The notes beneath the pieces are model-generated. The model did no database searches. It saw only the letters and a list, made by a program, of their open reading frames with translations, and was not told where the DNA came from. A DNA stretch of 64,000 nt. It comes from Polytrichum commune (Eukaryota; Streptophyta; Polytrichopsida; Polytrichales; Polytrichaceae). Where the stretch lies: assembly GCA_950295325.1 (NCBI GenBank), contig OX485807.1, forward strand, positions 17,889,666 to 17,953,665, in the 5' to 3' direction. This document shows positions 2,579-54,830 of the stretch, in pieces (positions within the stretch are counted from its first letter, which is position 1; every line of letters starts with the position of its first letter). The position numbers were made by a program, and so were the translations under genes.

Positions 2579-4026
2579 ATGAAGAATCCCTGGGCGGGAG
2601 CATCAGCAGGGCAGGGTTCCCTAGAGCGGTTTATAGCAAACAAAATAGCGGTGCGAAAGGAGGAGGATCACAGCACTGCCTTTGCGCAAAGAATCTGTTC
2701 CAACTTCCACGAAGTTAGCCGTGCCGCTCCGAGAGTTAACTCTCCTCCTTCCAATAAGATCGGTGCACTCAGAGATAAAGATTACTGGTGCTCAAGAGGA
2801 TGTTCCCAAAACACGAAACAGCATGCGGGGGCAAGTAGCGAGGATCCCCATGAGGATCTGTTCCCAAGGAAGTCTTCCTCCACTGACCATGTTGCATTGG
2901 TCGCCGAAGTCGAGGAGGCCATAGCCGCATGGGTGTCTGGGCCACAAGAGATTCAGAGAAGAAGAGAGCTAAGCAGTTGCGGAGAGGGAAGCCATTACGT
3001 TGCGTTGAGGCATCCCAAGGTGCAACAGCAGACATCAACATCGAACCAAGAGCCTGCAGCAGCAGGCATAGTATTATCCTCCTTCCATTCAAGAAGACAG
3101 AAAAACATCTGCAGAGAAAGAGATCATCATCATAGTGCAATGAGGCCAAGGAAACCACCCGGTTATGATCATCACTTGGACAATATCTCAACCCCGTACC
3201 AGCAGGTTGCTCCAGTAGTTAGACATCCAGATTTCCAGTCTGTCTCAACATCGCGAGATCATGACCTAATTCAACGCTTCCCACCACGGATGGCTATGGT
3301 CTCATCGAAGGTTAGCCCGCCGAAAGTTGCACAGAGAGTAGGGTTCCGGAGACATGAGTTGTATCCATTGCCCTTACCACCGCAGGATTTTAGGGTTACT
3401 GTTAAAGCAGAGCCAGATTTGTTCTTCCCGAGTACTGCACCGGTGCGGCACGTCGTTACGCACACAGGAATTACTAATGAAGGAACAAATCCTATGCCTC
3501 TTCATGTGCAAGATGAACAAACCCCATACCAAATCTCAGCAGGGATTACTCAGAGGATGAACCTCTTACCGAAGGAGGAGGTCCCAGTTGTGCACAGTGA
3601 AGAGATGATGACAATGATGAGTCCAGGGAGATCACCAAGTGAAGAAGATTTAGGTGAGGCTCAACAGGAGTTTTTGGTTAGGGGTGGTCGTCTTTCACAG
3701 GATGCCATAAACCCGATGCAGAGAGATGTCAATTCGCATGAAGATACTACTCCAACTCCTGCTGCAATGCCTCAAGCTGCTGTCCTGGAGAGAAATGAAA
3801 GTCCTAACCCAAGAACATTGGACAACCTCGTTCGGAAGATATCTGGGATTCGATCACCGATTCCACAGATTCCATGGGAAATCCTCGCGGCATTAACGAT
3901 TCCAAGTTCATACGAGCGACCAGTTGTTGATCGGGACAACCCTCTGCTCCCACCTCCTACTACAAGGCAGACTGTCATCACTTCCGCTCCGAAGACATTG
4001 GCTTATGCCAAGTCTAACAGTAACAG
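2579..4026 (+). CDS. putative 5' exon of the CNGC gene, disordered N-terminal extension
   Basis: This is an uninterrupted frame of 494 codons from ATG 2579 to the stop at 4061-4063. If spliced at 4026 (AG|GT donor) it contributes about 482 aa. The composition is rich in Ser, Pro, Arg, Gln and Thr with no recognisable domain, as in disordered regulatory tails. Usual CNGC2/4 N-termini are far shorter (proteins of about 700 aa), so this would be an unusual extension. The alternative is an independent gene or an unrelated ORF. In favour of joining: phase 2 matches the acceptor at 4353-4354, and the following exon (4355-4557) cannot start translation by itself. Confidence 0.5.
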
Positions 4027-7000
4027 GTTACATTCAACCCTAAGTCTCCAAAAAATCTCATGAGCTTCCAACTCATGGGTAGAGGTGACAACTTGATCAT
4101 TTCAATAGGAGAAGTCACTAGATCATACTCTTCCTCGGAAACCATTTGAGGATTTTCCACAGGTTAGCGAGATATGTAGATCGTGTGAGTTGAACCCTGT
4201 TGATTCTGGGTCACTACACATGCATGTCATTCTCTTCATCCCTTCGTACATAAGGCACAGGCAGACAGACATTGGCGATGAACAATTCTAATGGTAAAAG
4301 GGAATCGTACTGAATGTAGCGAATGGCGATGCATATACTGCTGTGAATTTACAGACTTCGGGTGTTGGTGGGCAGGGTGCGGAAGAGGCGAAACACTTTT
4401 GAAACTGTGAGAGCAGCGTTCCTTGGCAAGAGCTCTTCAAGCAGGAAATTTCAGGAACCTCTGGAACCCCCCATTGCATGTCCACTCTGTTCAGCAGCTG
4501 ATAGAGCTGGTGTTGCACACAAACCTTGTGATCACAAGTTTGCGTTTGAAGAAGGCGGTAAGCATCTAAGTCCAACACTGAAGCTCAAGCACTTATGCAA
4601 TTTTAGGATTATGAATCGTAGGGTTACGAATGGGATTCGCTGAATTTGATCCATAGGTTACCGACAGAGGATGCTCGTATTAACACACAAGACATGCTTA
4701 TTCCTGGGGTGTAGGCTAAGGGGGTGATCCTTTGCATTATGGAGCAAGATGTGCAGTGCTGCGTTTGAAATGGGGGGAAATTAAAACTTCTGGTGGCAGG
4801 AGGTGCCTTTCATTTCCACGGAGGGACTTTGAAACCTGGACCAAATGATAACAGCACAAAGTGGATATTCGGGAGAGTCCTGGACCCACGCAGCCAGAAT
4901 ATTCGAAGATGGAACCGACTCTTTCTTCTGTCATCTACATGGAGCACTGCAGTAGACCCTCTGTTTTTCTATCTCTTAAGCATTAGCAAAGAGCTCTCCT
5001 GTCTCTATGTCGACAGAGACTTTGCTCTCGCCGTCACGTTTCTCAGGACACTGTTCGACTCCTTTAAACTGGTGCACATGTATCTGCAGCTTCGGCTGGC
5101 ATACTTGTCCTCGGAGTCACTGGTTCTTGGCTACCATGACCTTGTATGGGATGCTCGCAAGGTCGTCTACAACTACTTATACTCAGGAGGTTCCTTTCTT
5201 TTAGACTTGTATGTCGTTATACCCCTTCCTCAGGTAGATCAATTTCCTCGTTGATGAATTTCCTTGTAGCAACCAAATGGCTTAAGATAATTACTGCTAA
5301 TAGTAGAGTCTTCAGCATTTTGCAAGTCTCTGATTGCAGTTTGTGGAATTTGGTCTCTCTCTCTCTCTCTCTCTCTCTACACCTTTGCATCCTCAAGCTT
5401 TGTAAAGTCTATGGGTTCAGTTCCTACATAATTTCCAAGATTCAGAAGTGACAGAATCATTTTGTCTGTCATTGTGACTAGAAATTTGTAACGTGTCTTT
5501 GTAGTCTAGTGGTCCATGGATCTAAGGAACATGGGGTTCGTTACTAATGCATATATTTCTGCAATTCTTAAGCTGTTCAATTTTGCAAGTAGGGAGACTT
5601 CGGAACAGCAAGGCTCCATCAATGGCTGATGTTTCTCTGGCATTGTGTGCCTGGGGATTGTGGAAAACGATGGATGGAACACAGATGATGGTGTGGTGGA
5701 TAGTTCCTGACATGATTGCTCAGGGCTTGAATTCACCAAAGATTATGTATTACTTTCTGCTCACATCTTTGTTGCAGTACATTCCAAGGATCTTCCACAC
5801 ACTTCATGCCAGTCGGCGTATGGAAAATGTGATTGGCTTTGTCTTTGGCACTGCCTGGTGGGCATTCTTAATTAATTTGACGTATTACTTCCTAGCTGCC
5901 CATGTAAGTAGTCTCACCACCCTAGAATAACTTCAATTATTCTCACAATTTCTTGGAAGTTTTCTTGCTAGAAAGCTGTAATGATTGTGTCCCTTTGGCC
6001 CTTAGGGCTGTTGCCACCTGTGAGAAGTTGAAAACTAGACACCACCCAACTGGAAATTGGAGTTATGTGGAGGCCCAATTATTTCTGAACCACCAAATAG
6101 AAGAGGTCTGGGAAGGCCCTGAACTTGTTATAACTTCAGAGGACCAGTTCACCTAGTGACCCAAATCATACCCTGGCTCAAGTCATAAATCTGTTCTCAG
6201 GCACCTGGAAAATTGGGACATGGTTACATACTTCAATGTATTGCTTCAAAGTCTTAATAATCCAAGAAGAGCTTCATTAAAATGTCGAGACCACTGAATG
6301 TAACCGGTACCCTGTTTCATTCATTGACATTTCTACTCATCTTTCTGATATTTTTGTGTACCTCTGTTGCATCCTTCTCAAAATTAAGAATCTTGTGAGG
6401 TCCTCATCTTCAGACTCTTTAAATTTTCATTTTCAGACTCTTTATTGAATCTGTTTCTCAAAAACGGTTTTGAAATGGCTACCTTGAGATAGGCAGATAG
6501 CGGGAGCATATTGGTATCTGTTGGGAATCCAAAATGTACAGCAGTGTATGGCTAATTACTGTACCGATGCTGAAAAGGACCTATGCAATCCAAGATACTT
6601 GGGCTGCCCTGAACCTACTTTTACAGGCAAACAGGTTTCGACTGACGAAACTCGGCTTGCATGGGCCAAGAATCCTAATATCACTAATAACTGCCTCTAC
6701 ATTGGAAAAAATTATAATGGAGACTACGACTTTGGGATCTACATCAACGTAGTACGTTTGACAGAGACCAGCCTAGTGAACCGCATGCTGTTCCCATTGT
6801 TCTGGGGTCTGATGACTTTGAGGTAAGAATTCACTGCCTTCCTTTGAAGGGGATACTTACCTACTGACTGCTTTATCAAAGACAATGTGGTAGCTTACAG
6901 GAACAAGTAAGAACCTGATATTATCTTAGAACCAACATAGGTTAGGATGCTAAAATGTTTTATGTGCTCCGATGGGCTAATGCAATAATCAGTCGTGGAG

Positions 7001-10000
7001 GTGCTGAAATGATACCTGCATCGTGTAATCTCACATGGGACATATTGTGTAATCTATACTCTAGACTAAAGAGGTTGGCTAATGATTTCGTGTGGTCTGT
7101 TCATCAGCACATTTGGAAACGCTTTAACACCTTCTAGCCAAATCCTGGAGATTTTTTTCTGCATGACGCTCGTAATCAGCGGTCTTGCCTTGTTCTTGCT
7201 GCTTATAGGGAACATTCAGGCATGTTTCCATCAACATTTCAACTCCTCATACATCCCTTCCCAGTGTCTCCAGATTTCACCTTGCCTTGTGTTAGCAGTG
7301 CATATGATTCCTTATGTCTACGCTTCCTTTCATGAACAATATATTGGACTATGTGCTTCTTTATTTTTTTCTCTTCCCTTTTCTTAAATCTCCACTCCTA
7401 GCTGCAATGGTGGCTTAAACCCAAGGCCTTGACCTGGATCCCATGGGAACTCGTCAATTAAGCCGCCTAGGCTGGAATAGTATTTGGATGGGTGATCCTC
7501 CTAGCACTTGATTTCATGTGTACCCTACCACCTATGGTCCATCCAACCATGTGGAAACCTAGGGGCTTCACCTTGGGAGCAAAAGATGCAAGTTGGCTTG
7601 TCCATGCCTGTTCAAGCCATGTGGGTTGGCTTGGCTAATGGTTTTGTGTGGTCTTTTCATCAGCACATTTGGAAACGCTTTAAAACCTTCTAGCCAAATG
7701 CTGGCGATTTTTTTCTGCATAGCGCTCGTAATCGGCGATCTTGTCTTGTTCTTGCTGCTCATAGGCAACATTCAGGCATGTTCCCATCAACATTTCAATT
7801 AAGCCGCCTAGGCTGGAATAGTTACTTGGATGGGTGACCTTACTAGCACTTGATTTCCTGTGCACCCTATCACCTATGGTCCATCCAACCATGTGGGAAC
7901 CTAGGGGCTTCACCTCGGGAGTGATAGATGCGGGTTGGCTTGTCCATGCCCGTTCAAGGTGTTCATCTTTGAAAATGGCAGTAGTCTTCGGGGGCCCTTT
8001 ATTTCTCATGGTGCCCATTTCAGGACAACATATAGACTTAGACCGACTCAAAGATGAAGCAACACCATAATTTATGCCAATGGCAACATCAAAGTCATCT
8101 TTCCTAGCTGCAAACCTTTCAGACACTGTGAGATATCTAGTTTACTTCTACACCTTAGAGAATGAAAGTGTGCAAGGTGTCAAGATTCATGTGGAATGGG
8201 ACAAACATCTCAGGTTTTCCTCCGCTCTATTGTAAGCAAGAAAGAGGAGATGCAGCTCCGAAACCGTGATATAGAGTGGTGGATGGCGAGGCGCCAACTT
8301 CCACGTGATGTTTGTCAGAGGGTGAGGAGATATGAACGTCACCGATGGGCAGCTCTCCGAGGTGTTGAAGAATCTCATCTTGTTAATGACCTGCCTGATG
8401 CCATCCGTCGAGATATCAAGCGCCATCTCTGTCTACAACTTGTTCGCAGTGTAATGTGTACTGCCATCACCTTGAATTTTCCTTATTTTGGCTCTTCCAT
8501 ATTCTTTTGCTATCTCTACATTTTCCCACGTATTAATTGAGAACCATTTTCTAGATCCATTTTCAATAGTGAACAAGTGTTAATTTCATACGCCTTTGTC
8601 CTATGAGTGTGCGGTGCAAAGGAAGGACACATGTCCATGGTATTTTTGATGTATACTGCATAAGGTCTTAGTTTACTAAGTTCATACACCACGCACACAG
8701 GAGGGCTTGCCAACTCGACATGTTAATTAATGTTCATCTCTTCTTGTTTTGGGTGACCAGCTTGAAATGGTCACCAGCCGCCAAAGACGAGGAGATGAAC
8801 ACTAACTACGTTTTGGTTGCCATTTTTGAGTTGACAAGCCCACATGGGCAAGTGCTGTGTAAGTGTGCTAGTAATGTTGTCGTGTCTGTCTTTGATGCAA
8901 ACAGTGGACAATTTTCCAGTAGAGTTAATGACTTATGCACTCATGGTGGTGGTAAATGGTTTGTCAGGCTGATTGTAAAAGCTTCATTTATGTGAAGGTT
9001 CTATATTTCTCAAAATAACTTATCTTCTTACACGGATGGTGAGCATTCCGAAATGGTCACCCCTGTATTTGAAGCAGCTCATTCCAAGGTGACGAACTCG
9101 AAATGGTCACCATCCGCCAAAGACAAGAAGAAACGAACATTAATTACCTGTTGGTTGCCATTTCGAATTGACAAGCTCTCATGTGCGAGTGCTGTATAAG
9201 TGCGCTGGTAATGTTGTTGTGTCTGTCTTTGATGGAAACAGTGCATAATTTTCTGTTAGAATCAATGATTTGTGCACTCCTGGTGGTAATAATTTGTCAG
9301 GCTGACTTGTAAAAGCTCCATTTTTGTGAAGGTTCTAAATAACTTTCGAAGGCAAAATTTTGATGTGAAACCAATAATACATTGAAAAGAACATCATTTT
9401 CGATTAATTTGTGTTGGTCCTCACTTCTTGTCACCGTATGCAGATCCCCTTGTTCCAGCACCTGGATTCCATAGTGCTCGACAGCATCTGTGAGCGTCTT
9501 AAACCTCATATCTTCATCCAGCAAGAGCCAGTACGTTCACATCCCCTTGTATGGTTTGGAAGAAAGTTTTCTTACATCATCTTTATGTGTCAGTTTGCAT
9601 TCTGCCCTTACTTCTTCAGACTTTTTTGGATACTGTACTGCCATGACATCTCCAGTTCTTCCAGTTGCCAACCTCCTACACTGGCCACATGGTTGAGCTT
9701 ATTTCCATACTGAAAACATTGGGGATTCTACTGTGGGTGCAACCTATTCACCAACCCACAGTGTTCAACAACTGAAGTCCACGTTGTAGGTTACACTATT
9801 TTTATTGGATTGAAAGACTTCCAATGTTAGGGGTAGGAAGTGGGTATGTTATGGGGCATCACTAGTGTAACAACTAGGATTGCACACTATTATGATGCTG
9901 TATGTTGTGGAGCAAACTACAGGGTTGCCCGGGCTAAAGTTGCACTATACATATGCCCACACTATTTACAATGTTCAATGTACTTCCCTCAACTTCACAC

Positions 10001-11163
10001 ACACAGTAGAGTTACAAAGTGAACCATACTAACATTTCTTAAGGTAAGCGGGTCTTAAAACAAGCACTTTGAGCTTTGCACCCACTTCTCATTCAACATG
10101 AAAGACATAATTATTGGAAGATGATTAGCGAATCCAAATTGTAGCCATAGCTATTTTCCTCATAATTTTTGGAGTTCATATGAATATCTTAATCATTGTC
10201 AAAGTGAGGATTCTCACCCTCATTAAAATAATCATATAGGTCCCTTCCAATTATGTTGACTATAGAGCCTAGGATGGTTATCAAATTTTAAGCATGAAAT
10301 TCAATCTCTTTTTAACACATGTGTGTTTTTCTGTCCGTCCTTATATCCACATCTAACCACACCACTCAAATATAGGTGTTTGTTAAAGAAGAGTAACTGA
10401 ATTATGCCCACTTACCTTACTCTTTAGCAGACCCCAAATTTGACAATCTGAATCGAAGCTGCTTAAATTTATATCTCCACAACGAAATGCAATCACGTTG
10501 ATGCAGGTATATAAAGAGGGTGATCCAGTGACGAAAATGCATTTTGTGTCACGAGGCCATTTTGAAAGCTCCTACAGATTGAACGACAACGATTACAGCT
10601 TATGTGTACTTGGACCTGGCAGTTTCTGTGGGGATGAGCTACTGTCATGGGCTTTGCGTCAACCCCACGTCGAGACATTCCCTCCATCCACAGCCACACT
10701 TAAGAGCCTGGATGTCACTGAAGTATTTTCTCTTGAGGCATCCGACCTCAAGTATGTGACGGACCATTACCGCTACAAGTTTGAGACCGAAACCCTCCGT
10801 CGTGCTGTACGGTTTTATTCGGTGAGTTGGCGCATGTGGGGAGCCCTTACCATTCAGTTAGCGTGGCGCAGATGCAAGTTGAGAATGGCAGCTAAAAAAG
10901 CAGCATTGGCGGTGGTGAGGACGGGTGGAAAGATTGGACCTCCTCCAAAAGATGATGAAGAAATTCTAGGTCTCCCACCAAATTCCAAGAACAGAAATCC
11001 CACTGATTCAAACAAGCGTGCAAGCAAGTCACTTCCGACCGTGCACGAGGAGACTGATGAAGAAACCGAAAGCATGGAGAACATTCATGGGCAAGATGAT
11101 ACACACATGCCTGATACAATTTTGCCATCATCTATTCCGAAATCGCAAGAGAAACTAGCCTGA
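2579..11163 (+). CDS. cyclic nucleotide-gated ion channel, CNGC2/CNGC4 (group IVb) clade
   Basis: This is a plasma-membrane cation channel; relatives conduct Ca2+ in defence and development. Proposed exons: 2579-4026, 4355-4557, 4800-5233, 5685-5903, 6497-6822, 7108-7219, 8214-8450, 9444-9530, 10507-11163, giving about 1240 aa. Every junction agrees in phase. All introns are GT-AG except the one after 7219, whose donor is GC. Visible landmarks: a Cys-rich segment (ACPLCS, about residue 525); FGRVLDPRS before S1; WNRLFLLS and DPLFFY in S1; IPLPQ in S3; WGLMTL-STFGN pore joining exons 5 and 6; RDIEWWM and LP..RRDIKRHLC in the C-linker; a CNBD with GPGSFCGDELLSW (about 1058-1070); and an IQ motif IQLAWRR (about 1137). 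The STFGN filter and RDIEWWM are typical of the CNGC2/4 group. The first exon (about 483 aa, Ser/Pro-rich, no domain) is the least certain part. It is phase-compatible, and the next exon has no Met, so some upstream exon is required. Confidence 0.9.
7108..7219 (+). CDS. CNGC exon 6, copy 1: selectivity filter and S6
   Basis: This 112-nt exon (phase 2 in, phase 0 out) completes WGLMTL with STFGNALTPSS and encodes the S6 helix ending LLLIGNIQ. It matches the corresponding CNGC2/4 exon exactly in position. The acceptor is TTCATCAG|C. The donor is CAG|GCATGT, a GC-type 5' splice site; no in-frame GT donor is nearby. It joins cleanly to VFLRSIV at 8214. Confidence 0.88.
7431..7502 (+). mobile_element. 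5S rRNA-derived repeat (copy 1), Cassandra-type TRIM or 5S-SINE fossil
   Basis: The stretch aligns by eye to the 3' half of plant 5S rRNA: GGATCCCAT.. GAACTC, then AATTAAGC.. with the A-box region, then GGATGGGTGA of the C-box region. It lacks the 5' half and is not a functional 5S gene. 5S-derived sequences of this kind are known from Cassandra terminal-repeat retrotransposons and some SINEs; I cannot tell which. It is an old, partial copy. Confidence 0.65.
7664..7775 (+). CDS. duplicated CNGC exon 6 (copy 2), candidate mutually exclusive exon
   Basis: It is the same length (112 nt) as 7108-7219, with the same acceptor (TTTTCATCAG|C) and the same GC donor. It has about 10 substitutions and no indel, and keeps an open frame STFGNALKPSS...LLLIGNIQ. 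About eight of the ten changes alter the protein. One puts Asp in place of a Gly in the middle of S6, in the SGL motif. Using both copies would shift the frame (112 is not divisible by 3), so only one can be productive per mRNA. It may be a real alternative pore exon or a decaying duplicate; the high share of replacement changes leans to the latter. Confidence 0.6.
7797..8110 (+). mobile_element. 5S rRNA-derived repeat (copy 2) with longer body
   Basis: The 5S-like head (7797-7844, with GGATGGGTGACC) is followed by a body shared with 7503-7627 and extending to about 8110. The distal part of the body recurs in reverse orientation at about 45820-46140, so this is a dispersed element and not a 5S gene. 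Treated as a fossil of a TRIM/LTR or SINE type. Confidence 0.6.
10180..10385 (-). repeat. dispersed repeat family R1, reverse copy in the last CNGC intron
   Basis: Reverse-complemented, this matches 40390-40590 closely, including CTATATTTGAGTGGT, ATGTGGAT, AGAGATTG and TTTGATAACCAT.CTAGG. Other copies lie at 41330-41400, 46250-46410, 46660-46810 and 47850-48030. It has no coding capacity and no visible terminal inverted repeats, so the class is unknown. Confidence 0.7.
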
Positions 11164-11505
11164 AGGTTTAGGGTTTAGGGCTCCTTTACGTACACCTTTC
11201 CTGGTTTTGCACATGTCTTAAAATCCAATGGTTCATGTTCATGTGTCAATGTCCACTGATTCAAACAAGCGTGCAAGCAAATCACTTACGACCGTGCACG
11301 AGGAGACTGATGAAGAAACCGAAAGCATGGAGAGCATTCATGAGCAAGATGATACACACATGCCTGATACCATTTTGCCATCATCTATTTCGAAATCGCA
11401 AGAGAAACCAGCCTGGAGGTTTAGGGTTTAGGGTTCCTTTACGTACACCTTTCCTGGTTTTGCACATGTCTTAAAATCTAATGGTTCATGTTCATGTGTC
11501 AATCT
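11002..11505 (+). repeat. tandem duplication of the CNGC 3' end (period 253)
   Basis: Unit 1 (11002-11254) covers the last about 53 codons, the stop and the start of the 3' UTR. Unit 2 (11255-about 11505) repeats it with few changes, leaving a second, non-coding copy of the C-terminal tail just downstream of the stop. Each unit carries two TTTAGGG-like motifs after the stop. The high identity suggests a recent event. Confidence 0.9.
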
Positions 11506-15636: not shown

Positions 15637-18600
15637 ATGTCCTGGCATCTTCTGGCTATGGGAGCAATAAAGTACCTGCTCATTAATCGGTATTCAGGGT
15701 CATTCATTTCATATGGACTTCAAAGGATTATACTGCACACAAAGGCTTTCAGAGTACTCAATCACAGGTTGTTTGATCTGGCAGTATTTGCAAGACCACT
15801 TGCTTTGTCGAGTTCAAGATTACTAGGGGTATTGCAAGAAGGTGACTGTAACCTTAAACAGCTGAGTTGGTCAAAAGCTCTGAATGATGGGTACATTATT
15901 TGCTGTTCGAAGGTGTCTCTACAACATAAAGATTACATGGCACTTAGATCTAGAGGGATGGACTTGTGGGGAGTCCACTGTAATCATATCTCGGACCATA
16001 GGCAGATGACGCGAAACCTCCACACGTGTGCCAATGAAGCAAGGGCGACTTTTCACAAGAGCAAGGATATCAAGAACCTAGAATGTTTTCGGCCCATAAG
16101 GAATGATTCTTCATCTGCTAGTAAGCCTTTTAAACTTATTAATGCAGAATGAGTTATATGTCCTATACAGACCCTTTTGGAAGGGACACACATCCTATTT
16201 ACGCAGATAAGCCACATTGCTCCCTACTTTCAATTTGTCACTTGCTTTAGAGTAAAGAAACAAAACATTTTCTCTGTTCCTGGCTAAGCTTATAATGAAG
16301 AACAGAGATCCCTGAATAATAACATAGACCAAGTTCGCTCAAAGTTTTGTGGCCTGCACAGATTTATTATCTCCCTAGGTAGTCAGATGCTCTAGTTTAT
16401 CTGATTTGCTTCCAAGATGGATGATCTAGTATGGTTTTTGCAAAATGTGCAGACCTTGGACAACAGATAATAAGGACGCTTGCTGATAGGAGCTGGGGAC
16501 TGAAGTTACATGAGGTACTTGGGAAACTTCATGTTTTTCTTGTTCCTTCTATTGTCAATGAGGTACTGACATACCAATCAGACATAAAGAAAGCAATGAT
16601 TTTTTTCTGTTGGGCTGGGGCACAGAAGGGATACAAGCACACATCTTCTATTTACAACCATATGATACAGAAACTAGCGACGGCCAAGGACTTTAAGGTT
16701 CTTTTGAAGGTCATGGAGGAGATGAAAGGGAATGGTATTGAGATGACTAATGGCACACTTCGCAATGTACTCCTTACATGTGGTGCTAATGGGAAACCTG
16801 TTGAGGCACTGCAAATTTTCCATCTAGCAGTACATTTACAGCAGAAGCCCAATACAAATGCATACAATATTCTTATTATGGTGTTAACTTCTGGGGGATA
16901 CTGCCACACAGCCTATCGTATGTTCCGGAGCATGTCAAAGGTAGACATTCGACCAGACGCTTACACATACCACCTTCTTATTCATAGGTTTCTGAAACTG
17001 AAGAGAGTGGGGGTGGCTACTCATCTACTTGAAGCCATGAATCGAAGGGGTCTCACACCCAATGTTATCACACTCAATGCCATGATTGACTCTTTCGGCA
17101 AGAATGGTAATTTGATAGCAGCCAGAAATCTTTTCCAGGAAATGAAAAAAAAAGGGTCAAACTCCCCTCCAGATGTGTGCACCTACAATACCTTATTGAA
17201 CATACTTTGCAAACAAGGGAAAGGCTCTGAAGCTTGTGAGCTTTACAAAGAAATGAGAGATGCAGGGTATGTGGCTGATCTTCCCACTTACAGGAGTATT
17301 ATAGGTGGGCTTTGCAAGATTGGCAAAATTCAAGATGCCATACAAATTTTTAGGGATATGACTCCAAGAGGGAATACGGATGCTATTGGGAAAGATAATA
17401 GTGTGCCAGATGAATACATATACAGCCAGCTGATTGAGGCACTTAGGGAGGTTGGAGACTTTAGTAGTGCACTTAAACTCTTCAAGGAAATGACTGGTGG
17501 AGGGTATGTTGGTAACAGTGGCTTGTACATTTCGTTAATTAGTAGCTTAGGAAAGGCAGGGAGATTCTCTGAAGCAAACTTGGTACTAAATGAAATGATG
17601 AAGAACGGTCTTAGGTCAGATGTGGTTGCTTATGGTGCCCTAATTGATGGCTACACAAAAGCTAGCTTGATGGAACATGCCATGGAGGTGTTCTGGGAAA
17701 TGAAAGAGAAAAATATTGCCCCAAATACGATTGTGTACAACACTCTTATTGCGGGCTTTGGGAGGATTACAGACTGGCGTGCAGCACAAGAAGTGTATGA
17801 CAACATGATGAAAGATGGCTGCATTCCTGATTTTGTGACCTACAAATGTTTAGTACGCATTTTGGGCCAGGCTGGCAGGGTTGAGGAGTGTTATAAGCTT
17901 CTAAAGGAAATGGAGAAGAGAGGGATTGTCTCTGACACTTCACATTACAATGTCCTCATCCTCAGTTTCTGTGCAGTACCAAGCCTTATAGGGGAGTCCG
18001 TTCGGTTAATCGAAAGGATGCGCAAGCGGGGACTTTCTCCTCAACATCATGTACAGAATGCTGTCATACAGGCCTGCATAAAGGGAGAAAAATGGGAGGA
18101 AGCACTGATTTTCCTTGAATCCATGTTGAAACACAAGTGCGTTGTGGAAACAACAACATATACCTCCCTCGTTAGCCTTCTCACAAAGAAGGGGGAATTT
18201 GACAAAGCCTGCTCTGTGTTCAAAGATATGAATGAATTGGGCTGTCTTTTGGACGAGGCTGCGTATAATTTGCAGTTACAATGCTTGGGCAGGACCGGAA
18301 ACATACGTGACGCAGTCAAACTTATGGAAGTGAATGAGAGAAAATTTTCTGTGACTAAAGTAACTTATGCTTCTCTTTTAGCAGACTCATGGCGAGCCCA
18401 TGACTTGGATGCTGCATGCAAGTTTTACAAAGAGACAACTGAGCTGGGCTTAAACCATGATGCTCTTGGGTTTGATGACTTTATCAAATCACTCAGTCAC
18501 GCAGGAAAAATAAGGAGGGCAAGTGAACTGTTTGAGTTTGTAACAGCGAAAGGGATAAATCCCAGTGCCAGCTCTTACAGTGCTCTAATCAGAGGCTTGG

Positions 18601-18833
18601 CTTTAGCAGATCAAGTTACCGATGCTTGTAACTTGTTTGAAGACATGAATGAAAAAGGCATCCAGGCAGACGCTGCTATGTTTGTTGTTTTGATCAATTC
18701 TTTGGGCCAAATTGGCCAAGTGGATGCAGCCCTGGAACTCTTTGACGAAATGAATGAAAGGGGCTTAAGACCGAGTTCTCACTCTTATAAAGGACTTCTT
18801 GAGAACCTTGTTCGATGGGGCGTGTACAAGTAG
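15637..18833 (+). CDS. P-class pentatricopeptide repeat (PPR) protein, probably organellar
   Basis: PPR proteins bind organellar RNA one base per repeat; P-class members mostly act in RNA stabilisation, splicing or translation. Two exons are proposed: 15637-16120 and 16453-18833, joined through a 332-nt GT-AG intron with matching phase, about 954 aa. The main exon has about 20 consecutive 35-residue motifs (about residues 225-935), for example TYNTLLNILCK and VYNTLIAGFG, ending in a partial repeat. No E, DYW or SMR domain follows. The N-terminal exon is rich in Arg, Lys, Ser and hydrophobics with few acids (GAIKYLLINRYSG..), as in a mitochondrial or plastid transit peptide. Without the first exon the protein could start at ATG 16431, inside the proposed intron, and would lack the presequence. 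The repeat region is near certain; the first exon is likely. Confidence 0.9.
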
Positions 18834-22706: not shown

Positions 22707-23205
22707 TTTGTAACATTGACTTAATTTGTGTTACAATGTCACACTCATCTGCGGGGAGGGTGTGTGAATTGATGAGGTTGCTTGCAATTCTTTTTGCTCC
22801 CTTCATCACAGATCTGCTCACCGTTTTCTTGACCATCTTGTTACCAAGACAAGGCACGGGGTTAGCAGATCCTCACAACATTCTAATCGTATGGAATCTT
22901 GTAACCACTCGAGCTAGGGTTTATAGTTAGTCTCGAATTTCATAAGTATGTCATTGCATTTAGGGCAAGTGGGGAGTAGATGTGAAGTCTCTTCTTTGTC
23001 ACATTGCCTTACTTTGTGTTACAATGTCAGACTCAACTGTGGGGAGGGTGTATGAATTGACGAGGTTGCTTGCAATTCCTTTTACATTCTTTATCCAGAT
23101 CCATTAAGCACTTTCTCGACCATCTTGCAGGTTTAGCAGATCTCTGCACATTCAAAATCTGCGGAATGTTGTGACTCCTTGAGCTCAGGATTAGGGTTGA
23201 AGGGT
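22707..23205. repeat. tandem duplication immediately upstream of the DTW gene (period 288)
   Basis: Block 1 (22707-22930) and block 2 (22993-23205) share GTGTTACAATGTCA, GGGGAGGGTGT, TGAGGTTGCTTGCAATTC-like text, a 'CTCGACCATCTTG' stretch and a closing AGCT..GG.TTAGGGTT-like end. Block 2 ends about 60 bp before the start codon, so it probably includes the core promoter or 5' UTR. Block 1 would be a second, diverged copy. Confidence 0.8.
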
Positions 23206-23264
23206 GGAGGCAAGGATTGATAGAGGACACTGGAGGGAGCGTAGGAATTTGGAGGAGGCATGCG

Positions 23265-24703
23265 ATGAGGCCGTGGTGCGAGGGTTGTGCTCGGCCAAAC
23301 ACTGTGTGCCTATGTGACGTCCTCCCTGCGCCTCCGGGATGGCCCACGCGCACCCGTATCCTCATTTTGCAGCACCCACACGAACTTAAGCACAAGCTCG
23401 CCACCGTCCCCCTCTTGGCCCGTTGTCTCCCCGCTTGCCAGGTGGTCGTCGGCCGCCGCCTGCACTCCACTTCGTCGCCCCTCCTCCCGCCGCCCTCGCC
23501 CTCCCACCTGCCCCTGCTCCTTTTCCCCGGCCCTCATGCACAGGAGTTGGGGTCGTGGTATGCAGCGTTCACCTCCTCGCAGCAGCTGCAAGAAGGCATT
23601 GCTTCAGCTCCATTGCAGGTTCGTCGCCTGCTCTTAACTGGCATTTGAGTTAGATGTAGAGATTGTTGTGCGCATTCCGCACTGTTAATCCTGATGGCTA
23701 CTGTGAGAAAACTGTCATGACGTAATATTGAAGAAGACTATTCAAGTTTGTCCATTGCCCAACCCGGTTTGTTGGCACCCCTAACCTAATTGTAGCATGT
23801 ATATATTTGGCACAAAGAATGTTTTAATTTTTATCTCAATGAACGGCCTTCATTTAGACTTGAGGCATGTCGTTTAACTTTAGTATGTTGGTTTTGTTAG
23901 AACTACACAAACATCCAGTTGGAGCAACACACAGTTTCATATTCAATAATGTGAAGCATCACCTTGCCCCATGGGATTGCCCAGGTCCTTTTTTAGTAGG
24001 AAATGCACTGCAATTATGACTTCATAACAGCTTATGGAACCAATGGGAGCATTTCATAAGATTATGCCAAACTTGGTGATGATGTGTTGCCATGTTTATA
24101 TTGTGTCATGTTCATTTCCGTATTCCACAATTTTGTGTTCTTGTGATTTTCCAGGTTCATGAAGCCCAAGTACACGCAGATGGTAAGGAACAATCTGTAA
24201 CTACAAATAGTGAAGTTAAAGGATGTGGCCAGGATACCAACCTTATTGACCATGGCTCAAAAGTGGCACAGAAGGACGAGATTGACAAAACAAAAGCCAG
24301 GAGTGTACAAATCACTTTAGTTGTTGTTGATGGCACTTGGGAGCACGCACAGGAGATGGTGAAAGCTAGTTTGCCTTTTCTCTCCCAATTTGTAGTACAA
24401 GTATGCCTACCATTTGATAAACACTCAGAGGGGGATGGCATGGGCGACTCGGATCTGATCATGAGGAAGGAGCCATTTGGTGGATGTGTTAGCACAATGG
24501 AAGCAGTAGCACGATCACTAGCATTTCTTGAAGCTGATGGTCACATCATCGAAGAGAAACTCATGGCTGTATTGCGCAAGATGGTTTTGCTACAGGCATC
24601 TCACTTTGGCCTTCCAAAGATACGTCCTAAGCTAAAAAAGAAATCTAAAAGGATGGACACTGACCCACATATGCCATTAGCCAAGATGTCAGGTGAAGGT
24701 TGA
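23265..24703 (+). CDS. DTW-domain protein, tRNA-uridine aminocarboxypropyltransferase (DTWD/TapT family)
   Basis: The family transfers an aminocarboxypropyl group from SAM to uridine in tRNA (acp3U). Two exons are proposed: 23265-23618 and 24155-24703 (phase 0, GT-AG), 300 aa. Visible motifs in order: the zinc-type cluster CEGC..(6)..CLC near the N-terminus; QHPHE; LLFPG; DGTW (the DTW signature) with EHAQEM; RKEPFGGCVSTMEAVAR; and a basic tail PKLKKKSKR that may be a nuclear or nucleolar signal. The ATG at 23265 lies four codons before the first Cys; no earlier in-frame ATG is seen. A Gln/Lys-rich insert of about 50 aa at the start of exon 2 separates the LFPG and DTW motifs. Exon 1 is clearly GC-richer than exon 2. 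All key motifs are present. Confidence 0.92.
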
Positions 24704-26529: not shown

Positions 26530-28540
26530 TTAGATTAAGATTTATGTTACCCTTTATCCAAAGTAAAATCAAGCTCTTTGGTTATTTCCCTACTTGTTAG
26601 TATGTGACTGGGTGCATTCATCAAAACCTATTTTTATTTCTAATCCTCTCAAGGTCATGTAGTCTATTATACACAATTGCCAAATTGCCTTTGGACTTGA
26701 CTGTCAGTTTGCTGCACTCTATGATTCCGTTCTCTTAAATAAACCGGATAAAATGTACTGCAACAACAACTATGCCCTCTTGGCGATATCTGCTAGTAAA
26801 AAATGTACAATTTACTGGCCACAACGTTTTAAAGATAAGATATAGTTTTTATTGCGTTTGTATGTACTTGTAGTTGGGCTTGTACTCTTGGAACAACAGT
26901 GCCATAAACACATTAAAAATTTACAGAAAGGCACTTCAAAACCTATTCCTAGTTTGCCTTTTAAAGTTTGAAGGCCTCTTATGTCAGGCCAGGCCATAAA
27001 CTAGAACACTGCGCCCATATTCTTGGTTTGAATCAAATTACTCTTGCTCAACTGGTTTTGAGCTTCGCTTTTCAATGGCAGTTGCAGTGTCCTTGTTATA
27101 ATTGGTGCAAAGAAAAAATCATTTGCTTTCAACAACGTTAGCTTTGGTGAGGGACAGCCTACAACCTTTTTCTGTTTCCATGTGCATTTTACATAGTTAT
27201 TGTACACTAATATGTGCAATTAGATTGTTTTGTGCTAATTTATCAACATTCCACACTATTTTGAATATTTTTAACCATGGAAAACTTAAATGAACTAATA
27301 TTTTACTGTGGTTGCTATATGGATGAATGAACAAACTTGTAAGTTTTTGTGATCTTATTTTGACCTAGGTAATTTGCATGGGTAAAGAGGCAACATATTT
27401 GTGAAGGCAATCTAATTGCACATGTCATTGTAGTTGTTGTAGTGCAATGACAATAGCCCAGTGTGTTGACCAGAGGATCTCTACTCCCCCCCCTCAAGAG
27501 ATCCATGCATTTCTATTGAAAATAGTCTCTCATCTAGAGGGTTCAATTAACCATGTGGGAATATTAGAATTAGGAACCAAGCATAGTGCTCTTTCTTCTA
27601 TCTAGTGTGGGTTTCATTATTTTCAAGTTTGTGACTAAATTAGATATCTTTATTTACTCTGGTACACACTCTAGTAGTATATCACATTGTTCAACAAAAT
27701 AGAGAAAATTAATGTATTGTGCAAGACTTTACATTTCACAATTTAACAAGGGATTAAACCCATAACCACACACCTAACCACATTAAAGGACTTAAAATAA
27801 ATAAATAAAAAGTCTAGAACACACTATCCATGTCAAGTGGTAGTAGTATCAAGGCATGATAGTCATCTTGAGATTTTAGAGATATTATTCACTTTGAGAC
27901 TACATAGTGGTGACCGTGGGCAAGGAGCGGTGCTAAGACAATGGTGGCAAAAGCCCATGTAATGACTAATGAGGACAACAATCATTCTATTGTGCCACTA
28001 TTTCACCAAAATCCTTCAACTAAAGACGATCACCCTAATTTGATGGTACGTTATTTAAGAGCCCACACTAGATAGAAGAAAGAGTGTAAATTGCCACTAC
28101 AAGCCATTCTCTCTCTAAAATGTGAACTTCCTTCACATCCAGGCATCATGAGCATTATAGGGCCCACGAAGACTATTGCCTCCTCTTAAAGGTAAACACC
28201 TTGAACAAGCGCAAACAAGCCAACCCAAACTTAAAGTATGTGTGCCTAAAAGTAACACCACTCTTAAAAGCAACACTTGCATTTCATCCTTAAAGTGTCA
28301 ACAAGTGAGTGCAATGGTGCATTGAGTAAACCAAAGATAAAAGCCACTAATCATATGCAGCATGTAATACAAATTACACCACTTTGGCCATTTATAATGG
28401 CGGTGTTAGGATGAAGAATGGTCAAAGAAGAGTTTTGACCCATCACAAGGGATTATCTAGGATCTACATGCTTAACAAGGTGGAGTAAGAGGCATTCCTC
28501 AAGAGATGAACAATACCATCATTGAATAGAAAATTCTTAC
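26530..28540. other. intergenic region, nothing recognised
   Basis: AT-rich DNA without a supported gene. Short open frames on both strands have no recognisable motifs. Confidence 0.5.
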
Positions 28541-29814: not shown

Positions 29815-31487
29815 ATGGCAGCCATGACTAATGGTGATGTGAAGAGCAGGCGGCAGTTGCAGGCGGCGGAGGGGCCGGCCACCGTGATGGCCATTGGAAC
29901 AGCCGTGCCACCCTTTGTGCATGAGCAGAGCACGTATGCCGATTACTACTTCGATGTCACCAACTGCAACCACAAGACGGAGTTGAAGGCCAAGTTCAAG
30001 CGCATCTGTGAGTCTCAGGATGATAATATTCATCGTCTCCATATTTAGTATGCATAGCCTGCCTGCCATGTGAACAACATTGTGTGTCGTAGGGTTAATT
30101 ATTAGCGAATGCCAGCTACAACATAGTACCGTGCAAGGTTCGGAAATCGCTAATGATGCAATCCAGGAAATTAATCGGTTATGGGTTATCCGATGCTGAA
30201 GTTGGTATCTCCAAGTTCAAAAGAGTTCTCTGTGGACGACTGTTCGTCGATTGATTGAGATCTTGAGGAATTCACCTAGCCTGGTTGGACCAGTTGTGGG
30301 AGTCTGATTTTTAGTGGATGCTCATGATCAAAGCTATTCTTAAACCATGATCTTGAAGAAGGGGGCGAGAGTAGCGTCATCACCATGGGTCCAAATTAGC
30401 AAGCTCATTAATCCTCTCTATGATTTTCAGTTCACATTGTTGAGTGGCAGGCTTAAACTAACATGTTATGTGCTTCGATGTAATTCCAGGTGACAAGATG
30501 CAAGTGGACAAGCGCCACATGGTGGTGCGACGGGAGCTGCTCGAGGAAACTCCATCGTTGGCATCGTACATGGACAACTCCATGAGCGCACGCCACGACA
30601 TTGTGATGGAGTGGGTGCCCAAGCTGGCCAAGGAGGCCGCAGAGAAGGCCATCAAGGAATGGGGCCGCAGTGTGTCCGACATCACACACATCGTCTTCGC
30701 CACCACCAGCGTCATCAACATGCCCGGCGTCGACCTGCTCGTCGCCAAGTCGCTCGGCCTTTCTCCCAAAGTGCGTCGCGTCATGATGTACCAGACGGGG
30801 TGTTGGGGCGGCGCCGCGGCGCTGCGAGTGGCCAAGGACTTGGCCGAGAACAATCGCGGCGCCCGTGTCTTGGTGGCGTGCAGCGAAATCACCGCCAGCT
30901 TCTTCCGAGCGCCCAACGAAGAGTATTTGGACGGACTGGTGGGTCAGGGTCTATTCGGCGATGGCGCCGCCGCTGTCATCGTGGGCGCCGATCCCATCCC
31001 CAACGTGGAGCGCCCCTTGTACGAGTTCGAATGGAGTGGCGAGATGGTAGTGCCCGACAGCGAGGGAGCCATCGACGGCCACTTCATGGAAGCCGGCATG
31101 TACTACCATTTGAGGCCCGAGATCCCAAAATTGGTGTCCAAGAGCATAGAGGAGTTCGTGACAGACGCCCGAGCCGCAGCCGAAGGCAAGGAGTGCAACG
31201 AACTGTTCTGGGCAGTTCACCCAGGCGGCGTGGCCATCCTCAACCAGATCGAAACCCAGCTGAGCCTGACACCCGAGAAGCTGGGAGCCAGCAGGGAGAT
31301 TCTTCGCAACTATGGCAACATGGCCAGTGCGTGCGTGTTGTTTGTATTGGATGAGGTGCGGAACAGGTCAATCAAAGCAGGATCTGCCAACACTGGCGAG
31401 GGCAAGGATTATGGGTTGCTCATCGGAATCGGGCCCGGGCTCACCATGGAGTGCTGTGTGTTGAAGAGCCTGCCACTCCTCCAATAA
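29815..31487 (+). CDS. chalcone synthase-like type III polyketide synthase, bryophyte stilbenecarboxylate-synthase-like
   Basis: These cytosolic homodimers extend a CoA-linked starter with malonyl-CoA and cyclise the product. Exons 29815-30007 and 30490-31487 encode 396 aa, the usual family length. The single intron splits a Cys codon (residue 65) at the position conserved in plant CHS genes. The catalytic triad is intact: Cys169 (QTGCWGG), His308 (AVHPGG), Asn341 (YGNMAS), equal to Medicago Cys164, His303 and Asn336. The gatekeeper Phe215 is kept (VGQGLFGDG), as is Gly256. Cavity positions differ from CHS: Thr197 to Phe, Val196 to Ser, Phe265 to Tyr, Ser338 to Ala, Gly134 to Val. The Trp after the catalytic Cys is unusual. 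Product specificity therefore probably differs from naringenin chalcone. The YQTGC context resembles, from memory, bryophyte stilbenecarboxylate synthases. Exon 2 is GC-rich compared with its surroundings. A second ATG at 29824 is an alternative start. Confidence 0.95.
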
Positions 31488-44317: not shown

Positions 44318-45819
44318 TAATGAAGCCAATTCAAAGAGGAAACACATCCGCAGTGATGCATGAATATTTCCTTGTAACGAACGGACTTTATTCATACAAG
44401 TGCTAAGAAGTATTTTGTGTTTATTTAATTCAATTGTGGATCAAGTAAAAAGAAGACAAAACAAAAGCACCATTTTAAACTATTGGTTTTCTTTCGTAAT
44501 AAATACTATACTTGAGTATGGCTATAGAGACATTGATTTACTGCAATGCAACTCGTGGTGGTTTACACAAGGGTCAAAGTCCAAGAAATTTGGGATCCAA
44601 TATATACTTTAAATGATCCCTAGTTGTGGACTCCAAATGAAAACTAGGTTTGAAGTTTAAATTCTCAAATTAGGTGAAATATTTTTATTGAATTGGGACC
44701 AACAAGATTTGGCATGAAAGTGGTGTCACATAAGCACCACTTCATTTCTCATATTGTGGACTCAAACCCCAATTTAACCTCCTTTGGGTCCAAATTTTTA
44801 CACACAACCATCAAGATTACTCGATTTAAGGTTTCTTTGGTGTTGGACCCTAATGTCAAACACACCCTCGTTAGAACTCCAAAAAACCAAACTCGGCTCA
44901 AGTAGTTCAAGGATAGCTTGGTGAACCTCGTGCATCTCACTCGGGTATTTTGCTGCCACTCTAAGAACATGAACATCGCATAATAAAATGTTTGGAAAAA
45001 GCACATCATGATTGATGCGCTGGAAATCATGTAGTCTAAGTGGAGGTCCAAGATGACCCTAAACTACTGGGTGATAGTGGAGAGGTACCGAATGGAGTGG
45101 TTGACGGTTCGATTCCCGCTGTGAATCTTCTCTCTTATTGACAGAAAAAACTAGCTAGGTAAGTAGGAAGCCAAGAGCCCACTCACCGCAAGGTAGGCAG
45201 TAAACTCCACCTTACACCGAGAAGATTCTTGAATATGGTAGGACCAACAAGCTCAAATTCATGTCGGATTGCCTGACGTTGGTTAGTTATTTATTTAGTC
45301 TGAGTGACATGTCTACTCCCACAAACAAATGGGAATTCAAATGTACGTTTTTAACAAATTATGATGCTACGCGGCATATGGGCTAGCAGGTCCACCAACA
45401 AATCAATACCGTTTTCATTTAATTTGTAGCATTGTCGTACACAACAAAAAAAAAAAAAAAACTCGGAGACTCTTAGATTTGGTGGGCATGATGTGGGTTT
45501 TGAGACACGGAGATCTCTACTTATTATTATGTATATGCATGGTCAAAGTTTGAATAATTCCACAACCCAACTTAGTACGGGCGGAGGTATGCTAAAGGAA
45601 TGTCAATGGTTTCATGATAGTAATGTGGTACTCTAGGTTCCGTGTAGTTGTGGGAATGTGTGGTGGCCATAAACCGCCCCATTTTGCCATATATACAATA
45701 CAAGGAAACGTGAAGATTTTAAAACGTAAACTAAGTTGACGAGGGGAAAAAAAAAGGAAGTAAAAGAAAAGAAAATGGAGAACAAAAGAAAACCAAAGGG
45801 GAAAAAAGAGAAGAAAAAA
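44318..45819. other. gene-free stretch with a possible SINE trace
   Basis: No gene is supported. At about 45060-45150 the text GGTTCGATTCCCGC fits a tRNA-type pol III B box and an upstream TGATAGTGGAGAGG is a poor A box, so a tRNA-derived SINE is possible but weak. No intact tRNA can be folded from it. Confidence 0.3.
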
Positions 45820-46140
45820 GACGACTTTGATGTAGTCACTGGCATGAATCATGATCTTGTTTCATTTTTGAGTTGGTTTAATTTTAAGTTTATATGTAAT
45901 TTTGAAACATGTGGTACGAAAATCAAAGAGGTGAAGGCAAGGTCCGAAAGAGTATTGCCTACTTTTGAAGGTGAACGTCATGAAAGGGCGCAACGGAGCC
46001 GGCCAGCATCTATCTCCCTAGGGTAAGTCCTTACGTTTCCACATGGTTGGTTGAAAATGTCCGGTTCACATGGATATCCCAACTATGATTGGGTGGATCA
46101 TAGGTGGAGGGTGCACCCGGAACGAAGCGTTGGTACTTGA
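45820..46140 (-). repeat. dispersed copy of the repeat body next to the CNGC 5S-like element
   Basis: The reverse complement resembles 7860-8110 in the CNGC intron: shared words include GACTTTGATGT, AAGGTGAACG, CCAACCATGTGG and a TAGGTG.AGGGTGCAC stretch. The 5S-like head itself is not evident here. Open frames across both copies look alike only because the DNA is related. Confidence 0.55.
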
Positions 46141-52553: not shown

Positions 52554-52783
52554 GAAGCTCTCCACATTGAGCCTACAAGTAGGGCACTTGAGGATTGGGG
52601 TCCGGGACGGGAACCTTCCACCACACCCAAGGGTTGGCTGGGAAACCGGGCAATTGGAAAATTTAATACAACTATGAGCTTATAATAAGTAGCGGAGATG
52701 TAGGGGGCGCTTTTTAGAATGTGAAGCTCCTGATGTTCAGTTGACCCTGTCACTTGGGCGCTCTTTTCTAGGGAGCGGTCCAT

Positions 52784-54137
52784 TGGCTGTATTATGTGGA
52801 CGCCACGTCACACGCTCGGTTTCGAAACGGGACCGGAGACCGGTGGGCCCTAAGGTACGAGAATCATGGCCTTCGCATGTGTCTTATGACCTCGAGAGGT
52901 TGGTTCCGTCTAACGTATTATTGGCTATGCCTTGTGGGAAGAGACCTAGGGGTGGTCTTTGAAGTGGATCAAAACCCGGCAGCCAACCGGAACGGGTCAT
53001 TGGTGTTCGTTGCAAGGGATTGTGTGATGTCTGTCAAGTGGTCTGTAAAACGAGTTAATTTGGTTGTTTTTTTGTGGACACCACGTCACACACTCGGTTT
53101 CGAAACGGAGACCGGTGGGGCCAAGGTACAAGAATCGTGGCCTTCGCATGTGTCTTATGACCTTGAGAGGGTGGTTCCGTCTAACTTATCGGCTATGCCT
53201 TGTGGGAAGAGACCTAGGGGTGGTCTTTGAAGTGGATCAAAACCTGGCAGCCAACCAGAACGGGTCATTGGTGTTCGTTGCAAGTGATTGTGTGATGTCT
53301 GTCGAGTCGTCTGTAAAACGAGTTAATTTGGTTGTATTATGTGGAAGCCACGTCACATGCGCAATTTCAAAACGGAGACCGGTGGGGCCAGGGTATAAGA
53401 GTCGTGGCCTTGAGTCCTTGACATGTGTATTATGACCTTGAGAGGTTTGGTTTTGTCTAACTTATCGGCTATGCCTTGTGGGAAGAGACCTAGGGGTGGT
53501 CTTTGAAGTGGATCAAAGTCCGGCAGCCAACCGGAACGGGTCATTGGTGTTCGTTGCAAGTGATTGTGTGATGTCGAGTGGTTTGTAAAACGAGTTAAAA
53601 TGGTTGTATTATGTGGACGCCACGTCACATGCGCAATTTCGAAACGGAAACCGGTGGGGCCATGGTACAAGAGTTGTGGCCTTGAAATGTGTATTATGAC
53701 CTTGAGAGGTTTGGTTTTGTCTAACTTATTGGCTATGCCTTGTGGGAAGAGACTCAGGGGTGGTTTTTGAATTGGATCAAAGTTCCGCAACCAACCAAAA
53801 CGGGTCATTGTTGTTCGTTGCAAGTGATTGTGTGATGTAGAGTGGTTTGTAGAACGAGTTAAAATGGTTGTATTATGTGGACGCCACGTCACACACGCGG
53901 TTTCGAAACAGAGACCAAAAACCGGTGGGGCCAAGGTGCAAGAATCATGGCGGCCTTGACATGTCTTTTGAACTTGAGAGTTTGGTGTTGTCTAACTTAT
54001 TAGCTATGCCTTATGGGAAGAGACTTAGGGGTGGTCTTTGAAATGGATAAAAGTCCGACATCCAACCAGAACGGGTCATTTGGTGTTAGTTGCAATTGAT
54101 TATGTGATGTGGAGTGGTCTGTAAAACGAGTTTAATT
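52784..54137. repeat. tandem array of about five units of about 270 bp (satellite-like)
   Basis: Units start with GTGGACGCCACGTCAC-like text at about 52796, 53073, 53341, 53613 and 53877 (periods 277, 268, 272, 264). Each continues through GAAACGGAGACCGGTGGG, CTTATGACCTTGAGAGG, GGCTATGCCTTGTGGGAAGA, GAACGGGTCATTGGTGTTCG and GTAAAACGAGTTAA. Identity falls toward the right end. Long open frames cross the units in several phases only because the units repeat. Confidence 0.95.
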
Positions 54138-54830
54138 GGTCTTGATTGGACAATCAGCCATAGTTGGTCACATGTGCAAGATAATACACAATAACCTCCT
54201 TAATATCATGCTCATGGCAACCAAAGTGCACGTGGTATTATGTAGGTTTGTAGTACTAACATGGATGCATGATAATAGAGAATTAGTGTAGGATGTGACA
54301 TTATGGAATGACACAAAGTCAACATTGCAATAACCACAACGATGACAATGTGATGTGTGCGAGCATGTGGTTTCAATTCATTGGTGGATCATTTTAATAT
54401 TAAAACTTGTGATATATGGGAGGGAAATGTGACAATGAGGGAGATTTAAACTAAGCACATCCGTTCGACACTTGACTCTTTATAGGTTTGTGCCCAATTC
54501 ACCTCAAATGACATGAACAACATATAACTCATGTTTGTAAACATTATTTCGATGTCAATTTATATATAAAAAGTGTCCTTCATTATGCATATTATTTATG
54601 GACTCGTATGTTGGATGAATAAGAGGTACATTCATATGTGAGAACTTCCTCTCTTCCTCCCCTTCCCTTTTTGGGAGTTGTGGGTAGTTCATTCCAATTA
54701 GATTACATTGGATTAATCTTTGGAAGTTTATGTTGATTGTGAAGTCCAAATTATTTCAAAAGAGATTTCAGTGTTATGTGTAGTTGATTGCCCTTTCACC
54801 ATAGGCAAGATTGATGGGGGTCAATACTAA
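54138..54830. other. gene-free stretch
   Basis: AT-rich DNA between the tandem array and the LINE. Nothing was recognised. Confidence 0.5.

Follow-up and report, generated by a model that had tools for sequence, protein, structure and literature searches.

The window, by which we mean the whole analysed stretch of 64,000 nt from Polytrichum commune, carries on its forward strand a CNGC-type channel gene in which a pore exon and its surroundings lie in two copies. Further genes and repeats were observed in the same stretch: a long frame for a PPR-repeat protein (16425-18833, 802 codons), a DTW-domain gene with at least two exons (23175-24703), a type III polyketide synthase of the chalcone synthase family (30462-31487) and a tandem array with a unit of approximately 270 nt that occurs in several copies at 82-88% identity (52783-54140). 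The best PDB matches of the polyketide synthase are the chalcone synthases 6dx7, 9jl6 and 9kah and the stilbenecarboxylate synthase 2p0u, of which we take 6dx7 to be a moss protein and 2p0u to be a liverwort protein. Two tandem repeats of other parts of the channel gene were also observed. The first (8752-9337) is a 252-nt duplication at 83% identity in a later intron and begins with the palindrome-like GGTGACCAGCTTGAAATGGTCACC; the second (11000-11503) is a 251-nt repeat at 96% identity that comprises the last 164 coding nucleotides and the start of the 3' untranslated region, so that the end of the coding sequence recurs in this untranslated region. The features of the channel gene that are discussed below are the following:

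2579-11163, + strand, CNGC-type channel gene, our model with nine exons including one pore exon
2579-4026, 4355-4557, 4800-5233, 5685-5903 and 6497-6822, + strand, model exons 5' of the pore exon
7108-7219 (or 7664-7775), + strand, model pore exon
8214-8450, 9444-9530 and 10507-11163, + strand, model exons 3' of the pore exon
7108-7219, + strand, pore/S6 exon copy A, encoding the selectivity-filter region and S6, with a GC donor and gapless collinearity with three plant CNGC structures
7664-7775, + strand, pore/S6 exon copy B, with a GC donor and an open frame, and with E14A and G25D at columns invariant in three plant CNGCs
7075-7616, + strand, copy 1 of the duplicated unit, with a CTAAT branch-like site, acceptor, exon A, intron and a 5S-related element cut at 7616
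7631-7958, + strand, copy 2 of the duplicated unit, without a counterpart of 7239-7453, its element continuing downstream to approximately 8102
7432-7502, + strand, first copy of a 5S-rRNA-like stretch
7796-7840, + strand, second, truncated copy of the 5S-rRNA-like stretch

The channel gene and its two pore exons

Three parts of the gene model are provisional choices of ours: the start codon, the N-terminal region of approximately 480 residues and the acceptor at 4800. The channel part of 575 aa aligns over residues 5-573 with plant CNGC structures at E-values from 8e-129 to 5e-116, the best matches being CNGC15b (9kcu, E 8.3e-129) and CNGC15b with calmodulin (9kcv), followed by CNGC5 (9j35) and CNGC1 (9j34, E 4.8e-116). 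Judged by this similarity, which spans S1-S6, the linker and the cyclic-nucleotide-binding fold, the gene is a plant CNGC. A Pfam search of the protein gave cNMP_binding at 26.8 bits, slightly below the cut-off of 27.5, and at E 0.001 no other family and no ion-channel family. The protein is collinear with MtCNGC15b (9kcu), CNGC5 (9j35) and CNGC1 (9j34) over approximately 569 residues including the pore and S6, but it differs from them in the filter region, which reads GN, preceded by F, in the P. commune gene and GQ in the three structures. We presume that the channel is like those of the CNGC2/CNGC4 group (IV-B). No relative of the channel was found in a scan of viral contigs, and a scan of genome contigs gave one bacterial locus with 35% identity to query residues 113-175, outside the pore, which was set aside.

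The sequence-only reading had described two 112-nt exons at 7108-7219 and 7664-7775, and the coordinates hold, as do the shared phase (codon split AG/C), the shared acceptor end TTCATCAG, the shared donor and the lack of any indel between them. What that reading overlooked is that the donor of both exons (7219/7220 and 7775/7776) is GC, in the context CAG/GCATGT, while the remaining donors in the model are GT. The intron was read as GC-AG because the protein is then gapless across the junction when compared with the plant CNGC structures. The upstream exon ends in TTGAG/GTAAGA at 6822 and the downstream exon starts at 8214. Judged on consensus, the splice sites of both pore exons conform and are alike in acceptor end and GC donor, and a branch-point-like CTAAT, the pyrimidine tract, the acceptor and the donor are all preserved in copy B. 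Two neighbouring exons that are homologous, equally long and in the same phase, with no indel between them, represent the layout of mutually exclusive exons.

The exons are identical at 102 of 112 nt, and the ten differences comprise eight replacements (T/K, I/M, E/A, M/I, T/A, S/G, G/D and A/V, A given first), in agreement with the number of about eight given previously, and two silent changes. When either A or B by itself is joined to the other exons of the model, the frame stays open for 1240 aa, and when both are omitted a stop follows within a few codons. Inclusion of both breaks the frame, as had been predicted: the combination A+B stops after ten codons of B, at codon 923.

Extent and divergence of the duplicated unit

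The duplication, which looks recent, exceeds the exon and is wider than was described earlier. Positions 7075-7242 match 7631-7798 over 168 nt at 91.7% identity (E 1.7e-61), which is well beyond chance, and a second part of the repeat matches 7454-7616 to 7795-7958. Aligned in blocks, 7075-7238 and 7631-7794 show 14 differences in 164 positions, 7454-7480 and 7795-7821 show none in 27, and 7481-7616 and 7823-7958 show 15 in 136. Copy 2 is devoid of the 215 nt of 7239-7453, a stretch flanked by TCAA on both sides. As the unit starts at the branch-point-like CTAAT, copy 2 constitutes a complete splicing cassette.

The intronic element contained in the unit includes a stretch that resembles 5S rRNA. 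With a 5S rRNA sequence as query, the first copy reached a local alignment score of 58 against a best score of 26 in 500 shuffles (blastn E 2e-8), and the truncated second copy a score of 39 against 29 in 500 shuffles (blastn E 0.002). Rfam gave no 5S match in the whole window at gathering cut-offs, nor in 7000-8220 at E-values up to 1. Relatives of the element lie on the reverse strand at 45817-46116 and 28142-28226 and align to copy 2 beyond 7958, at 7882-8102 and 7932-8015, respectively. That the element runs past 7958 in copy 2 and ends at 7616 in copy 1 is what a duplication junction inside the element would leave behind. A stretch of approximately 70 nt that resembles 5S rRNA within an intronic repeat recalls the Cassandra-type elements, a likeness that concerns the 5S-like stretch alone; in the accessible text of one report such elements are described from vascular plants and ferns (PMC10853983), and a Cassandra-type 5S element in a bryophyte would be of interest.

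Within the duplicated unit the exon has diverged as much as its surroundings, at 10 of 112 positions (8.9%) compared with 19 of 219 noncoding positions (8.7%; Fisher p = 1.0), a noncoding count in which four bases of copy 2 were entered twice, as matches. The unit as a whole shows 21 transitions and eight transversions and has a noncoding K of 0.092. For exon A versus B, with 85.7 N sites and 26.3 S sites, dN is 0.100, dS is 0.080 and omega is 1.25. Equal exon and noncoding divergence together with an omega of approximately 1.25 give no sign of selection on both copies, in a comparison of one 112-nt exon pair that has low power. In neutral simulations ten changes gave a mean of 7.0-7.7 replacements, and no stop arose in 0.77-0.81 of trials; with five changes none arose in 0.87-0.90. 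The ratio of 8:2 and the open frame are therefore what neutrality predicts, and neither of them speaks for selection; the open frame of B was for the same reason rejected as a sign of its use. Under a model in which A stayed fixed and only B was free, the eight replacement differences observed compare with 3.7 expected (P = 0.036), and under one in which both exons were free with 7.4 (P = 0.47), which suggests that A has changed too or that B has changed fast.

The remainder of the gene was considered in the same manner. If the whole frame were drifting at 4.6%, half the divergence of the pair, 5.9-7.2 stops would be expected in 1240 codons and none is seen (P ~0.002); for the channel part minus the pore exon (537 codons) the same drift predicts 3.0-3.3 stops, and again none is seen (P ~0.04). 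Selection seems to have acted on the remaining reading frame ever since the unit was duplicated. A frame that is free of stops makes it most likely that some productive transcripts use exactly one pore exon, and it is silent on whether both exons are used.

Comparison with known channel structures gives a mixed picture of copy B. Three plant CNGC structures share 20 invariant columns, of which 15 are retained in A and 13 in B; five differ in both exons. The two columns that are lost in B only are E14 (changed to A) and G25 (changed to D), the latter located in S6. Replacement of this glycine by an aspartate would probably impair gating. Eight randomly placed positions would hit 3.2 of the 15 columns kept by A, and two or fewer with P = 0.28, so that the changes in B neither seek nor clearly avoid invariant columns. 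At the variable positions B is nearer to the plant CNGCs at 7, 19 and 27 and A at 12, 14, 24 and 25, with a tie at 20. A query of 136 aa scored higher with A than with B by 1.9-4.6 bits on four plant CNGC chains and, among the best 60 of 79 and 82 matches, also on HCN1 and SthK. Among the same best 60 of 79 and 82, B exceeds A on CNGA3 (53.7 versus 52.4 bits), on CNGA1 7lft (49.4 versus 48.0 bits) and several other CNGA1 chains, and on KCNH2 9chp (38.1 versus 35.9 bits). The view that B is simply the broken copy was thus kept only in part, given its greater nearness to plant CNGCs at positions 7, 19 and 27 and its higher scores on some animal channels. The three plant sequences are too distant for a firm assignment of the changes to one copy, and by these comparisons B is not a plainly ruined exon.

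Origin and possible use of the second pore exon

We consider it quite probable that a chance tandem duplication created the second exon, which has drifted since and is either skipped or spoils the transcript. The element would already have been in the intron when a local tandem duplication copied a segment that starts at the branch site ahead of the pore/S6 exon, includes that exon and ends in the 5S-related element of the following intron. Its junction would lie at approximately 7616-7631, within the element, with the short word GGTTGGCT near both ends, and 215 nt would later have been lost from copy 2 between the two TCAA words. Since then the two copies would have diverged as fast as noncoding sequence. 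A full channel would result from exon A and, in principle, from B on its own as well; most likely the channel is made with A, and B is for the most part left out, or else B may cost the gene some transcripts, if double inclusion leads to the early stop and thereby to decay. The demonstrated part of this explanation comprises the duplication, its extent, the equal divergence and the effects on the frame. Against it stand the intact splice signals of copy 2 and the fact that nothing in the sequence marks B as skipped. The window is rich in local duplications, with 17 direct-repeat matches of at least 40 nt within 1500 nt compared with one inverted match (four of the 17 belong to the array at 52783-54140 and two to the pore unit), and three of its duplications lie within the CNGC gene: the pore unit, 8752-9003 / 9088-9337 (83%) and 11000-11250 / 11253-11503 (96%). 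When segments were drawn at random from the gene, 23% of those of 540 nt and 2.6% of those of 252 nt contained an entire internal exon together with its splice sites. Given the frequent local duplications and this value of 23%, an accidental duplication of an exon in the CNGC gene is unsurprising.

The sequence-only reading had proposed mutually exclusive exons and had named a decaying duplicate as the alternative, and it is the alternative that fits better, with neutral divergence, an omega of approximately 1.25 and no competing pairing found. Of the original proposal the layout stands, and so do the signals kept in copy 2; neutral divergence, lack of pairing and the loss of two invariant columns count against the rest. 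With true mutually exclusive exons the gene would make two kinds of channel, distinct in the selectivity-filter region and S6; each transcript would contain one of the exons, and those with both would be eliminated by decay. The equal length and phase of the exons, their length of 112 nt that is no multiple of 3, the intact sets of splice signals, the opening of both single-exon forms through 1240 codons, the remainder of the frame that seems to be kept and the eight replacements compared with 3.7 expected if only B were free all agree with such a system. We nevertheless regard it as unlikely: exon divergence equals intron divergence and omega is not distinct from neutral, the 444-nt intron between the exons is too long for crowding, both introns are GC-AG, so that spliceosome incompatibility does not arise, and B carries an aspartate at the S6 glycine that is invariant in three plant CNGCs. 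Competing RNA pairing also received no support. Docking sites at 6823-7030 and 7960-8213 were paired with six candidate selector stretches, and none of these 12 pairings stands out against 60 dinucleotide shuffles each (z -1.05 to +1.83), so that pairing was set aside as an unsupported mechanism of exon choice. Decay of double-inclusion transcripts could still serve as a mechanism because 112 is not a multiple of 3. A real choice of the pore exon, which we judge improbable, would produce B subunits in which S6 contains an acidic residue and the filter is followed by a lysine; such subunits may be altered or dominant-negative in tetramers, and splicing would then set the calcium current.

Alternatively, B might act as a poison exon that is included together with A in some transcripts and, by accident or control, lowers the output of the channel through the stop after ten codons of B. 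The stop of A+B at codon 923 fits this, and since the donors are identical and the acceptors nearly so, double inclusion would be the simplest default; the conservation of B is, however, no greater than the neutral expectation, and persistence at approximately 9% divergence argues that any cost is small, which leaves us doubtful of this role. It is very improbable that two haplotypes or paralogues were joined end to end in the assembly, for although tandem repeats are a usual site of assembly errors, a divergence of 9%, a junction inside an element and a difference of 215 nt are unlike a false haplotype duplication, and the window has several other local duplications at 81-96% identity.

A drifting duplicate, the reading that we prefer, can be set beside what is known of exon choice elsewhere. 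In the accessible part of one paper, mutually exclusive exons are described as arising by tandem exon duplication, with competing docking/selector pairing as the main mechanism and decay of double-inclusion transcripts as one that is named (PMC6071210). The P. commune unit resembles the duplications described there in that an exon and adjacent intron were copied in tandem, and it differs in that no docking/selector pairing was found among its 12 pairings. In plants, the accessible texts record mutually exclusive exons for 11 of 2442 splicing events with peptide support in Arabidopsis (PMC13136898) and for MADS-box genes of spruce (PMC6243048); at the protein level such exons seem to be few. 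A plant CNGC with two pore exons or with a choice of pore exon was not found in the literature searched, to which most subscription papers did not belong: in the accessible parts of three papers, 'splic' does not occur (PMC7830781), 'mutually exclusive' carries another sense (PMC3570425) and CNGC is mentioned only in a reference (PMC7585205). The nearest functional parallel is the animal channel CaV1.2 (CACNA1C), in which, according to the accessible text, the IS6 segment is encoded by exon 8A, an alternative to exon 8 (PMC6964969). In both genes two alternative short exons encode an S6 segment of a cation channel, but in CaV1.2 exon choice and developmental switching were measured, whereas the P. 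commune gene is known from its sequence and the divergence of its exons is neutral.

If B is used, splicing would determine the conduction path of a plant ion channel, as with exons 8/8A of the animal CaV1.2. If B is drifting, the gene would represent a tidy example of the raw state behind mutually exclusive exons, in which a whole exon has been duplicated together with its splice signals and shifts the frame when both copies are used, in a gene that is apparently still functional.
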